NCBI GenBank assembly: GCA_027023475.1
Contig: JALVVJ010000119.1
Location: forward strand, 1-33,715
Source of the DNA: Flavobacteriales bacterium
GTDB taxonomy: Bacteria; Bacteroidota; Bacteroidia; Flavobacteriales; Flavobacteriaceae
Length of the DNA: 33,715 bases
Direction: 5' to 3'
Position numbers and translations under genes: made by a program
The notes under the pieces: generated by a model
The model's input: only the letters and a program-made list of their open reading frames with translations
What the model was told of the DNA's origin: nothing
Databases searched by the model: none
Shown: piece by piece, positions 3,352-6,654 of the stretch
How positions within the stretch are numbered: the first letter of the stretch is position 1
Layout: each line of letters begins with the position of its first letter

Positions 3352-4179
3352 TTAGCCCAGCGCCACGCGTTTGAATCCAGTTACTTTGAGTTCGGGATCC
3401 AAAGACTTGACGTAGTCGGCAACGGATTTTTTGTTGTCTTTGATAAAGGCCTGATTCACCAAGGTGTTTTCCTTGAAGAATTTTTTGAGTTTTCCTTGGG
3501 CGATTTTATCAAGCATATTTTCGGGCTTGCCTTCGTTGCGCAATTGCTCTTTGGCAATTTCCAATTCCTTGTCGATCACAGCTTGGGGAACACTTTGTTC
3601 GTCCAAGGCAACAGGGCTCATGGCGGCCACTTGCATAGCCACATCGTGAGCCACTTCTTCCACGCCGGGGATATTTTTGCTCAGTCCCACCAAGGTGCCG
3701 ATTTTTTTGTTGGAATGGATATAGGAACCCAAATAAGGCGCTTCGAGCACTTCGAATCCGCCGATTTCAATTTTTTCGCCGATCACACCGGTTTGTTCGG
3801 TGAGTTTATCGGCCACCGAAATATTTCCGTCGAAGGGGGCTTGAAGGAATTCTTCTTTGGAATTGTAGTTCAGTGCCACCTTTCCGAAGTCTTCGGCCAA
3901 TTGGATAAAATCGGCGTTTTTGGCCACAAAGTCGGTTTCGCAATTGAGCGAAATAAGCACGCCACGCGTTTTATCGGCGTTCAGCGTAGCCACAACCACG
4001 CCTTCGGAGCTTTCGCGGTCGGCGCGTTTGGCAGCCACTTTTTGGCCTTTTTTGCGAAGGATTTCAATGGCTTTTTCGAAATCGCCTTCGGCTTCGACCA
4101 GTGCGTTTTTACAGTCCATCATTCCGGCACCGGTCATTTTGCGCAATTTATTTACATCTGCGGCAGTAATCTTTACCAT
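3352..4179 (-). CDS. tsf: Translation elongation factor Ts
   Basis: 275 residues. EF-Ts is the cytoplasmic guanine-nucleotide exchange factor for EF-Tu. The N-terminal UBA-like domain contains LRKMTGAGMMDCKNAL (about 12-27). The second signature, CETDFVAKN (80-88), carries the TDFV motif that contacts EF-Tu. The core domain has HDVAMQVAAMSP, and the C-terminus follows the usual pattern (ADYVKSL...FKRVALG). The length fits the Bacteroidota form, with no insertions or breaks. The gene starts 29 nt after rpsB and is the last gene before a strong terminator, the usual rpsB-tsf arrangement. Confidence 0.97.
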   Translation of the reverse strand: MVKITAADVNKLRKMTGAGMMDCKNALVEAEGDFEKAIEILRKKGQKVAAKRADRESSEGVVVATLNADKTRGVLISLNCETDFVAKNADFIQLAEDFGKVALNYNSKEEFLQAPFDGNISVADKLTEQTGVIGEKIEIGGFEVLEAPYLGSYIHSNKKIGTLVGLSKNIPGVEEVAHDVAMQVAAMSPVALDEQSVPQAVIDKELEIAKEQLRNEGKPENMLDKIAQGKLKKFFKENTLVNQAFIKDNKKSVADYVKSLDPELKVTGFKRVALG

Positions 4180-4208: not shown

Positions 4209-5003
4209 TTATTCGGATTTTTCTTCGGCTTTTTGTTCTTGGGCTTGTTTTTCGGCTTTGGCGGCTTCTTTTTTCTTGGCCGCTTCTTTTTCCTGCTTGG
4301 CGCGTTCTTTGATCAATTGACGTTCTTCGAGCCCTTCGGCGATGGCGCTTGTCAGGTAATCCAGAATCAATTCAATGGATTTGGACGCATCGTCGTTGGC
4401 CGGAATAGGGTATTTGATCGGACGCGGGTCGGTGTTGGTATCCACCAGGGCCACAATGGGGATGTTCAGTTTGTTGGCTTCCTTTACGGCTACATGTTCC
4501 TTGTTGATGTCCACCACAATCATGGCGCCGGGCAGGCGGGTCATATCTTTGATGGAACCCAAGTTTTTTTCCAGTTTGGCACGTTGCCGGTCCAGGTGGA
4601 GTTTTTCCTTTTTGGACAGCGTATCGTAGGTGCCGTCTTTCTTCATTTTATCGATTTGGTCCATCTTTTTGATGGCCTTGCGGATGGTAACGAAGTTGGT
4701 CAGCATGCCGCCGGGCCAACGTTCGGCAATGTAGGGCATTTTGACGCTTTGTGCCTTTTCGGCCAAAATGTCCTTGGCTTGTTTTTTGGTGGATACAAAC
4801 AAGATTTTACGTCCGCTAGTCGCCATTCGTTTAAGGAATTTTTGGGCCTCTTCGAGCTTGGCGATGGTCTTGTAAAGGTTAATGATGTGAATTTTGTTCT
4901 TGGCACCGTAGATATAAGGGGCCATGTTGGGGTTCCATTTGCGGGTCAGATGACCGAAATGAACTCCGGCGTCGAGTAATTCGTTGATTTCGGGTTTTTT
5001 CAT
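4209..5003 (-). CDS. rpsB: 30S ribosomal protein uS2
   Basis: 264 residues. uS2 is a late-assembling small-subunit protein needed for uS1 docking and initiation. The start shows the family pattern DAGVHFGHLTRKWNPNM (12-28) and the middle contains RWPGGMLTNF and PGAMIVVDINKEH. The last 40 residues form a Lys/Glu/Ala-rich tail, likely helical, longer than in E. coli uS2 and common in Bacteroidota. The gene lies 84 nt after rpsI. That gap folds into a nested hairpin (see 5013-5072), consistent with feedback control of rpsB-tsf by S2, which is an inference. Confidence 0.97.
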   Translation of the reverse strand: MKKPEINELLDAGVHFGHLTRKWNPNMAPYIYGAKNKIHIINLYKTIAKLEEAQKFLKRMATSGRKILFVSTKKQAKDILAEKAQSVKMPYIAERWPGGMLTNFVTIRKAIKKMDQIDKMKKDGTYDTLSKKEKLHLDRQRAKLEKNLGSIKDMTRLPGAMIVVDINKEHVAVKEANKLNIPIVALVDTNTDPRPIKYPIPANDDASKSIELILDYLTSAIAEGLEERQLIKERAKQEKEAAKKKEAAKAEKQAQEQKAEEKSE

Positions 5004-5012
5004 GATTTTACA

Positions 5013-5072
5013 TTTAGTTTACGTTCCTTCGCATAGCAACACGTTCCCGACGTGTTTGGATGCTAAACTAAA
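5013..5072 (-). promoter_or_regulatory. Structured rpsB leader, candidate S2 autoregulatory element
   Basis: In minus-strand RNA the whole rpsI-rpsB gap can fold. The outer stem is TTTAGTTTA (5072-5064) with TAAACTAAA (5021-5013), 9 perfect pairs. Stacked directly inside is GCAT (5063-5060) with ATGC (5034-5031). After a 3x3 internal loop comes AACACGT (5056-5050) with ACGTGTT (5044-5038), closing a 5-nt loop. A 9-nt bulge (5030-5022) lies on the 3' side. The structure ends 9 nt before the rpsB ATG. There is no T-tract, so it is not a terminator. S2 leaders that repress their own operon are known in other bacteria; whether this fold is one is inference. Confidence 0.5.
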
Positions 5073-5087
5073 CAGAACAGGTTAATA

Positions 5088-5474
5088 TTAACGTTTGGAG
5101 AATTGGAATTTCTTACGTGCTTTGGGTCGTCCGTATTTTTTACGTTCCACCATACGCGGGTCGCGCGTAAGGAGTTTGGCGGGTTTGAGTTGGGCGCGGA
5201 ATTCGGGATCCACTTCCAGGAGTGCACGGGCGATGGCCAAGCGAATGGCACCGGCCTGACCGGTCAATCCGCCGCCTTTGACGTTTACTTTCACGTCGTA
5301 TTTACCCATGGTGTCGGTTACCTGAAAAGGTTTCAGGATGTCGATGCGGTGGGTCAATACGGGGAAATAATCTTCAAAACCACGTCCGTTGACGGTGATT
5401 TGGCCCGAGCCCTCTTTCATGTAAATACGGGCTACCGATGTTTTGCGTCGTCCGATGGTATGAATGGTATCCAT
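5088..5474 (-). CDS. rpsI: 30S ribosomal protein uS9
   Basis: 128 residues, standard length. uS9 is a head protein of the small subunit whose basic C-terminal tail reaches the P-site tRNA. Visible signatures are [13 protein letters not shown] (6-18), the [19 protein letters not shown] region (about 67-85), and the C-terminal [18 protein letters not shown] with the conserved SKR end. It starts 5 nt after the rplM stop, so the two are co-transcribed in the conserved L13-S9 pair. A 12-bp palindrome (5081-5092) overlaps its stop codon. Confidence 0.97.
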
Positions 5475-5479
5475 AGGGT

Positions 5480-5935
5480 TTATTTAAAATTATTGAGGTC
5501 GAAGGGTTGGGGATTTTGGGCCTCATGTTTGTGTTCGGGGCCTACATACACATGCAGGTTTTTGAACAATTTACGACCCAGCCGGTTTTTGGGCAGCATG
5601 CCTTTGACAGCTTTTTCGATCAGGCGTTCGGGGTGTTTTTTCCACAGGTCGATGGCCGTGATGCTACGGCGACCGCCGGGGTATCCCGTGTGCCAAATGT
5701 ATTCTTTATCTTCCCACTTGTTGCCCGTGAGCCGGATTTTTTCGGCATTGATGATCACCACGTGATCGCCGCAATCCACATGCGGGGTAAAGTAGGGTTT
5801 GTGCTTCCCGCGGATAAGCTTGGCCACTTTGGAGGCCAGGCGTCCGAGAGATTGTCCTTCGGCATCAACGAGCAACCAGTCCTTTTGGACGGTGTTTTTG
5901 TTGGCCGATACGGTTTTGTAACTTGTTGTATCCAC
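5480..5935 (-). CDS. rplM: 50S ribosomal protein uL13 (GTG start)
   Basis: 151 residues from a GTG at 5935. uL13 is an early-assembling large-subunit protein. Visible family features are [19 protein letters not shown] (20-38), [17 protein letters not shown] (51-67), [10 protein letters not shown] (82-91) and [11 protein letters not shown] (110-120). The frame is open up to an ATG at 5998. I choose the GTG for two reasons: the product then begins (M)[12 protein letters not shown], the usual flavobacterial uL13 N-terminus, and a TATATTTG promoter box at 5973-5966 lies inside the longer version. First gene of the rplM-rpsI-rpsB-tsf operon. Confidence 0.93.
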
Positions 5936-5965
5936 GTGTTTTGATTTTCGTTCATTAATGGCGTG

Positions 5966-5973
5966 CAAATATA
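5966..5973 (-). promoter_or_regulatory. Promoter -7 box upstream of rplM operon
   Basis: TATATTTG on the minus strand is an exact match to TAnnTTTG, 30 nt upstream of the rplM GTG start. No good TTTG lies at the usual 19-21 nt distance, so the -33 element is weak or absent. Confidence 0.5.
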
Positions 5974-6059
5974 AAACATTTTTCCCAAAACCCGACATTA
6001 TTCTTTGACCCTTTTTTCGTGCTCAATTTCTGGCGCTCCGAAACCCGGCTATGCCGGTT

Positions 6060-6654
6060 TTCTCCCGACATTACTAAGCAATGTGCGGGACAAGTTCCGC
6101 GGCTTCGGAAATCTGCGCTTCCTGTGTCCAAGCCGGTGGCCGCGCTTGTTTTCCTTCGCTGCTCCGGCAGCCCGTTCCGGTCTGCCTTCGCACGCTGCGG
6201 AGCCGCCTGCGTCGTCTCCTTGCGGCCCTCGGAGCCCTCCGGTCTCCTCGGGGAGCGGCGAACCCGCAGAGCGGTTTCGCCTTCAATGTTTACAGTAGGA
6301 CATTAATCATAAACCCGAACGCTTCAACCAAGGCCGGATGTATCATTGTAGCCGCGCGATTTATCGCGCGGGAAAAGCGATTTATCGCGCGCACCTTATT
6401 ATCGCGCCAGGGATGGGAGCGGTTATGCGGCGAAGGCGGCGAGGATGCTTTTCCGTCCGGCGGAGGCGACCGAAGGAAGCCCCACGCACGGGCGGGCGCG
6501 GGCAAGCGCAGGCGCAGCCCGCGCAAAAAGCAGCGAGCCGGCAAGCCGCATTCGAGCGGACAGCCCGACGGCGCCACGTGAACGCCGGCGGGTGCGAAAG
6601 CGCTCCGTCGTCTTGAAGCAACCGCCGATGCGTGAACGTGTGCGGCGGGGCGCC
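6060..6654 (+). repeat. GC-rich intergenic mosaic repeat, cluster 1
   Basis: This fills the 730-nt gap between rplM and lepB and has no convincing gene. In order it holds: a palindrome CCCGACATT...GCGGG (6064-6089); four small hairpins with different but complementary arms (6166-6186, 6199-6219, 6231-6247, 6257-6281); a core of about 145 nt (6282-6427) shared with clusters 3 and 4, carrying the palindrome CGCGCGAT-TT-ATCGCGCG (6353-6370) plus a second partial copy (6377-6390); a GC-rich stretch (6460-6565); and an 85-nt end module (6570-6654) repeated inverted at 10701-10785. Short open frames here follow the repeats and have no recognisable domain. Confidence 0.8.

Follow-up and report, generated by a model that had tools for sequence, protein, structure and literature searches.

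Introduction

In E. coli, ribosomal protein S2 represses the translation of rpsB-tsf through the 5' untranslated region with the help of S1, which is needed for the repression to be effective; the details are described as unclear in the sections of the report drawn on here (PMC10931766). The published rpsB motif (t44, RF00127) contains a pseudoknot between J2-3 and a 3' extension after P1, according to the part of its description used here (Meyer et al. 2009, PMC2704228). In Bacteroidia, an L13 leader has been described for the gene cluster rplM-rpsI(+rpsB), with rplM as the first regulated gene and L13 as the likely ligand, and the portion of Table 1 of the same study that was available lists no S2 leader (Eckert and Weinberg 2020, PMC7247131). 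The available text of that study also gives leaders for S4, S15 (rated borderline) and S16 in Flavobacteria (PMC7247131), which resemble the element described below in being lineage-specific and found by comparison and differ from it in their genes and likely ligands. Autoregulation of a ribosomal protein at the level of initiation has been reported in flavobacteria for rpsU/bS21 of Flavobacterium, where, in the part of the report used, the 16S tail and an extended Shine-Dalgarno (SD) sequence serve the control and no structured leader is involved (PMC9976891). The available text of an F. psychrophilum transcriptome study names several new structured 5' elements, and rpsB is not among them. 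Here we describe a conserved folded RNA that precedes rpsB in flavobacteria and some of their relatives and that is almost certainly a structured rpsB leader.

A hairpin in the rpsI-rpsB gap

The window is the whole stretch of 33,715 nucleotides analysed here (GenBank assembly GCA_027023475.1, contig JALVVJ010000119.1, Flavobacteriales bacterium). The genes around the element all lie on the minus strand, and their names were assigned by recognising the encoded proteins, which we take to be the following:

5480-5998, minus strand: rplM, on the same strand as rpsI, rpsB and tsf
5088-5474, minus strand: rpsI (ribosomal protein S9), upstream of the leader
4209-5003, minus strand: rpsB (ribosomal protein S2), the gene presumably regulated, whose product is the presumed ligand
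3352-4179, minus strand: tsf (EF-Ts), next gene after rpsB, in the same direction

The gap between rpsI and rpsB is 84 nt long (5004-5087). An earlier note, made from the sequence of the window, had placed in this gap a hairpin of three stems (9, 4 and 7 bp) that has a 3x3 internal loop and a one-sided bulge of 9 nt and stops 9 nt short of the rpsB ATG. We recovered the hairpin at this place, running from 5072 to 5013 on the minus strand, and its geometry was that of the minimum-energy fold of the 60 nt (-15.5 kcal/mol). The outer stem has 9 possible pairs, of which 8 were drawn in the 60-nt fold, and it was drawn with 10 pairs when 101 nt were folded; the inner stems have 4 and 7 Watson-Crick pairs. 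No T-run follows the hairpin on the minus strand and no terminator-like site was called on that strand, so the view of the note that the hairpin is not a terminator was right.

Compared with shuffled sequences, the 60 nt gave z = -2.03, with 9 of 200 shuffles folding as well, and the 101 nt with flanks gave z = -0.93, with 35 of 200 shuffles folding as well. The evidence from folding a single sequence is modest, and the strong evidence is comparative. Such values, which barely beat the shuffles, are what a hairpin arisen by chance in a short spacer could show, but that reading is refuted by the conservation, covariation and specificity reported below, and its probability is negligible.

Eight genomes of the genus, the window included, were compared; a ninth had a partial rpsB only. 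The AUGC needed for the 4-bp GCAU:AUGC stem was present only in the window, and in the other seven congeners the minimum-energy fold has UCC:GGA in its place. We therefore rejected GCAU:AUGC as a conserved stem (1 of 8 congeners); the middle stem is the one point in which the fold of the note needs correcting. In the window itself GCAU:AUGC still gives the lower energy (-15.5 kcal/mol, against -13.5 kcal/mol for the consensus fold with UCC:GGA); because the consensus fold costs 2 kcal/mol more, the window RNA may use either fold.

An AUG-UAA start-stop pair (5013-5008, minus strand) overlaps the 3' end of the outer stem, 10 nt before the rpsB AUG. It is probably due to chance, since only L003 shares it and it is missing in the other six congeners compared.

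Conserved structure and covariation

For the comparative analysis, a 49-sequence alignment without congeners of the window (A3) was made from 52 loci chosen for diversity, with L049, L220 and L221 omitted for an unusual P3. The pattern by which its sequences were excised fixed A13, U14, A17, A18, GAA and most of inner P1 and left P3, G64, pair 16:88 and the outer pairs of P1 free; because the pattern fixed them, invariance at the former positions is not independent evidence. A smaller alignment (A2) held 16 of 30 loci and excluded the 8 congeners and L012, L019, L021, L024, L027 and L028 (atypical P3 or long inserts), and another (A1) held 28 of the 30 (L012 and L019 excluded), on which no conclusion rests. 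Folded unprompted with RNAalifold, A3 gave a basal helix P1, a 3x3 loop (G-N-A / A-N-G), a short helix P2 (UCY:RGA), A17 opposite G64, and a hairpin P3; the nested UCY:RGA was chosen on both alignments folded. Mapped onto the window, the parts of the leader are as follows:

5013-5072, minus strand: leader RNA over its full 60 nt, with 5072 as the 5' end
5064-5072, minus strand: P1, 5' strand UUUAGUUUA, pairs with 5013-5021; outer pairs covary in A3
5061-5063, minus strand: 3x3 loop, 5' side GCA (consensus G-N-A), from the A3 alignment, in which some columns are pattern-fixed
5058-5060, minus strand: P2, 5' strand UCC (consensus UCY), pairs with RGA at 5025-5027
5057, minus strand: A opposite G5037 (A3 columns 17:64)
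5050-5056, minus strand: P3, 5' strand AACACGU, pairs with 5038-5044
5045-5049, minus strand: P3 loop CGGGA
5038-5044, minus strand: P3, 3' strand ACGUGUU, pairs with 5050-5056
5028-5037, minus strand: 3' linker GCUAUGCGAA, of varying length in relatives; contains the AUGC of the 4-bp stem
5025-5027, minus strand: P2, 3' strand GGA (consensus RGA), from covariation counts, RNAalifold and congener folds
5022-5024, minus strand: 3x3 loop, 3' side ACG (consensus A-N-G), from the A3 alignment
5013-5021, minus strand: P1, 3' strand UAAACUAAA, separated from the rpsB start codon by 9 nt

The note had proposed that rpsI-rpsB spacers of relatives be examined for covariation, and the stems proved to be conserved and covarying. 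In A3 the structure paired 90.0% of cells, compared with 72.7% in shuffles; both partners had changed in 275 cells, compared with 104 ± 10 after shuffling and no more than 87 after sliding; and the covariation score was 0.510, compared with 0.174 when shuffled and at most 0.116 when slid. The number of pairs with change on both sides showed no excess (16, shuffle mean 15.3; 256 of 500 shuffles reached 16). Covariation was strongest in P3, whose inner R:Y pair 28:52 was AU in 31 sequences, GC in 17 and another combination in 1. In P1 and P2 alone, the helices shared with the window, double changes were found in 33 cells (12.4 ± 2.5 shuffled), again without an excess in the number of pairs with double change (3, shuffled 2.8). 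Their inner pairs were invariant within A3, partly from the cutting pattern. The third pair of P2 (16:88), which the pattern left unfixed, was UA in 26 of the 49 sequences, CG in 7, UG in 6, AU in 1 and unpaired in 9. Outside A3, L169, L170 and L273 carry UUCA...UGAA for UUUA...UAAA, judged by eye to be a compensatory change in the P1 core. The data establish a conserved structured RNA directly upstream of rpsB and covariation in support of its structure, two features of ribosomal-protein leaders in general.

Bases drawn as unpaired are conserved as well. G64, also left unfixed by the pattern, was G in all 49 A3 sequences, and G-N-A-U-C and G-A-A-N-G were present in 15 of 15 loci found by a covariance model that itself favours them. 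This bears on whether the RNA needs a protein at all: it might be a structural mRNA element, that is, a stabiliser or processing site for rpsB-tsf or a means to a constant low initiation rate. A hairpin near the 5' end can protect an mRNA, and the terminator-like hairpins found in some flavobacterial spacers would mean that rpsB perhaps has separate transcripts. Against this, the conserved unpaired bases are more than a plain stabiliser would need, and the position of the leader before the AUG is nearly fixed (see below), so we consider a leader without protein ligand very unlikely.

A proposed covariation of C12 and N92 in the 3x3 loop (C/C with U/U) failed, as other combinations were common. 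P3 is the variable part of the leader. Most A3 members have a longer P3 stem with a bulged A (AGRC / CYACU) where the window has its CGGGA loop, and the genus of the window is without the conserved inner loop of P3. L021, L024, L027, L036, L039, L072 and L106, among others, have an inner P3 of another type (for example AUGAAGCC...), with no AGRC/CYACU. Since these loci retain P1, P2 and the 3x3 loop all the same, the apical domain appears to be exchangeable. In L012 the 3' linker holds an additional small hairpin (CCCACAGTATGGG) between P3 and RGA, and the linker thus tolerates insertions.

Occurrence and specificity

An S2 protein could be located in 96 of the 99 related genomes, and the core TTTAGCATCYAAA ... 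GAACGTAAA preceded rpsB in all 30 loci fetched, the window's included. An exact pattern made from the core, in which rpsB was not asked for, was then scanned over 84,980 genomes; it gave at least 120 stretches, which are a sample rather than a census and may overlap with the 30 loci. Among the matches listed, 118 of 120 lay directly before rpsB (79 of 80 and 39 of 40), and the remaining two, L061 and L124, end 24 and 15 nt downstream with the ATG already in place. Upstream, rpsI was found in 78 of the first 80 listed matches, the other two having less than 130 nt on that side. In the viral collection the pattern matched once (L266); the match falls within a reading frame of 255 aa on the opposite strand and is probably due to chance, and a phage copy was rejected.

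A covariance model from 16 family sequences (R1) matched 16 of 198 class genomes, and 13 of the 14 matches fetched lay before rpsB. The remaining one, the weak match L166, showed no rpsB downstream in the 2 kb of DNA fetched and was taken as a false positive. A second model, R2, was built from A3. On the window it matched 5011-5073 (49.7 bits, E 2.7e-6), the only match in that genome at E<=10; the leader is thus single copy in the genome and not a repeat. R2 matches were obtained in 178 of 296 order genomes, at least five of them with two matches, a count that rests on the model match itself. In the class, 35 of 247 genomes matched, all 35 matches directly before rpsB, and in the phylum 18 of 158, all 18 likewise; these two sets share 9 genomes, and A3 members, which match by construction, account for 11 of the class and 3 of the phylum matches. 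The placement before rpsB was taken from S2 coordinates and fetched DNA (15 of 15 in one fetched set).

The R2 genome searches miss weak members because of strict filters. With the filters off, R2 found 19 matches in 93 regions upstream of rpsB, 13 of them in A3. The leader was detected in 13 of 19 order-level regions (L221-L239), in G063 and G043 (L168 and L220), and in 4 of 52 class-level regions, a fraction that understates the class since it was drawn from class genomes other than those with a match from the earlier searches. In the same filters-off search no leader was detected in 6 of 19 order-level, 48 of 52 class-level and 20 of 20 outside-class rpsB regions, and it therefore appears dispensable over much of the phylum. 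The order-level regions without a detected leader are L223, L227, L229, L233, L236 and L237. L233 and L236 belong to reduced genomes of 0.3 and 0.6 Mb, and in L227 something like the 3' half of the leader seems, by eye, to be kept.

The leader is tied to rpsB

Of 110 loci, 108 fitted the pattern and 105 were measurable. The distance from the GAACGUAAA core to the rpsB ATG was 8-27 nt (mean 11.4, SD 2.3), and that from the leader to the rpsI stop was 9-210 nt (mean 89, SD 43); by a rough criterion, 21 of the 105 loci had a terminator-like hairpin separating rpsI from the leader. Lying about 11 nt from rpsB and far, at variable distance, from rpsI, sometimes past a terminator-like hairpin, the leader is tied to rpsB. 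Inspection by eye showed that the 3' strand of P1 can extend into the start codon, over its A in L165 and L277 and over its A and U in L228 and L238, and that it ends 1 and 2 nt before the start codon in L158 and L167.

The gene neighbourhood might point to a ligand other than S2 alone, namely another operon product or ribosomal partner (EF-Ts, S9, L13 or S1) or an S2-S1 complex. Where tsf was located in the same direction as rpsB (89 loci), it came no more than 400 bp after rpsB in 79, and rpsI regularly precedes the leader, as in the 78 of the first 80 listed pattern matches. According to the available parts of the literature, S1 is required for effective S2 repression in E. coli (PMC10931766), the ligand of a leader is often not encoded by the nearest gene, and the L13 leader of Bacteroidia belongs to this very cluster (PMC7247131). 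Since the leader is nevertheless tied to rpsB by its spacing, and S2 is known as a leader ligand elsewhere, we consider such a ligand unlikely, though it is the likeliest of the alternatives.

Comparison with known leaders

No Rfam family matched the element at the gathering score in the window or in 10 loci. At E<=10 there was no match in the 301-nt region of the window and none overlapping the element in 3 loci, where weak matches lay elsewhere, and at E<=1 none was obtained, t44 included, in 20 further class-side regions, 17 of them with the leader. As a positive control, t44 was detected before rpsB of E. coli with 83.5 bits. The S2-leader reading of the note, which had named Rfam as a check, thus came through this comparison. 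As far as our searches go, the family is undescribed in Rfam and the open-licence literature, a statement that papers beyond these could overturn, and the leader represents, within these limits, a new ribosomal-protein leader family, very probably an S2 leader.

The L13 leader of Bacteroidia is likewise a predicted ribosomal leader from the same class and gene cluster; it lies upstream of rplM, whereas our element lies between rpsI and rpsB. The S4, S15 and S16 leaders of Flavobacteria (PMC7247131, as far as its available text goes) are set apart in that no Rfam family matched the rpsB element. With t44 the element shares its nature as a structured RNA in the rpsB 5' region and its variable apical stems; it differs in sequence and in fold, with P1, loop, P2 and P3 nested and a short stretch from P1 to the AUG. 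The t44 model misses these leaders, and R2 misses t44-like regions.

Both leaders stand before rpsB, and the element could in principle be a divergent member of the proteobacterial rpsB/t44 leader, with UCY:RGA corresponding to the pseudoknot between J2-3 and the 3' extension. If a GCA:UGC helix formed, UCY:RGA would be a pseudoknot of t44-like topology, and GCA:UGC can pair in 92.5% of cells. This helix, however, showed no covariation: no cell was changed on both sides and all 500 shuffles reached the observed score. As RNAalifold picks the nested UCY:RGA, we rejected GCA:UGC with UCY:RGA as a pseudoknot; the pseudoknot of t44 was not found here, UCY:RGA nesting inside P1. The pairing partner comes after P1 in t44, as described in the part of PMC2704228 used, and before the 3' strand of P1 here. 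Considering also that t44 was not matched at E<=1 in the 20 class-side regions, nor R2 at E<=1 in 20 outside-class regions, we regard membership in the t44 family as highly improbable.

Outside the class, t44 gave sub-threshold matches of 25-31 bits (cut-off 44) in 3 of 20 rpsB-upstream regions (L246, L249 and L251), all on the strand leading to rpsB. The published rpsB motif thus seems to extend into this phylum, and the two sets of regions suggest that the phylum holds two S2 leader types. L248 gave a sub-threshold match to whalefall-1 and none to t44. By eye, CAUAC...GUGU...GUAG...AACC is common to many of the rpsB-upstream regions of other classes (L240-L259), which points to a conserved t44-like rpsB leader distinct from the one described here; 11 of the 20 outside-class regions were aligned with E. 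coli.

Ribosomal-protein leaders frequently, though not always, resemble the rRNA site of their ligand. A likeness of shape between leader and 16S has been reported in enterobacteria, in the part of the study consulted (PMC10931766). In sequence, the longest string shared by leader G291 and the 16S of the same genome was 8 nt. Of 500 simple shuffles, 356 shared a string at least as long, and sequence mimicry of the 16S is not supported for this leader; no 16S match was found in the assembly of the window.

A proposed model for probable autoregulation by S2

The best explanation of these results is probably a cis-acting leader of rpsB(-tsf) that is recognised by S2 and blocks initiation. The note had called the hairpin a possible S2 leader, which fits a structure that is conserved, covaries and keeps a nearly fixed distance to the rpsB start, its placement relative to rpsI being loose; judged from the sequences, S2 is probably the ligand and repression of rpsB the probable effect. 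The RNA would fold into P1, the 3x3 loop, the short P2 (UCY:RGA) and the variable hairpin P3. When S2 exceeds the free 30S precursors, it would recognise the leader, for which the conserved loop bases would be the natural contact site. With S2 bound, P1 would stay closed; since this helix stands a few bases ahead of the rpsB AUG, within the site where the 30S subunit lands, its closure would block 30S loading and initiation.

In the available parts of the work on these bacteria, the ribosomes of Bacteroidia fail to recognise SD sequences and the rpsB initiation region of F. johnsoniae is without SD (PMC9976891). As these bacteria do not rely on SD pairing, accessibility of the start site would matter. 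The same source gives an SD for rpsB in certain Bacteroidia (PMC9976891), which counts against the preferred explanation, as do the many rpsB regions of the phylum in which no leader was detected, the unsupported 16S sequence mimicry, the number of pairs with double change, which stayed at the shuffled level, and the missing inner P3 loop in the genus of the window. An effect on transcription is less likely because no terminator was called on the minus strand and P1 adjoins the AUG; we infer that S2 acts as the ligand, that the effect is repression, and that it takes place at translation.

A wider scenario, to which we give an even chance, is that an independently evolved S2 leader class replaced a widespread t44-type within the phylum: the nested hairpin of Flavobacteriales and scattered relatives would control SD-independent initiation by closing a helix up to or into the start codon, and other classes would keep a t44-like leader. 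If S2 autoregulation holds, Bacteroidota would have their first described S2 leader (within Rfam and the open-licence literature), a compact, covariance-supported RNA for studying mRNA recognition by S2, a late-assembling protein. It would also offer a handle on regulation where ribosomes do without SD pairing. Two different folds for one presumed ligand would, moreover, be a useful example of convergence in RNA-protein recognition.

Elsewhere in the window, the intergenic stretch 6337-6391 contains two 15-nt copies of GCGATTTATCGCGCG, 21 nt apart, each of them partly self-complementary.
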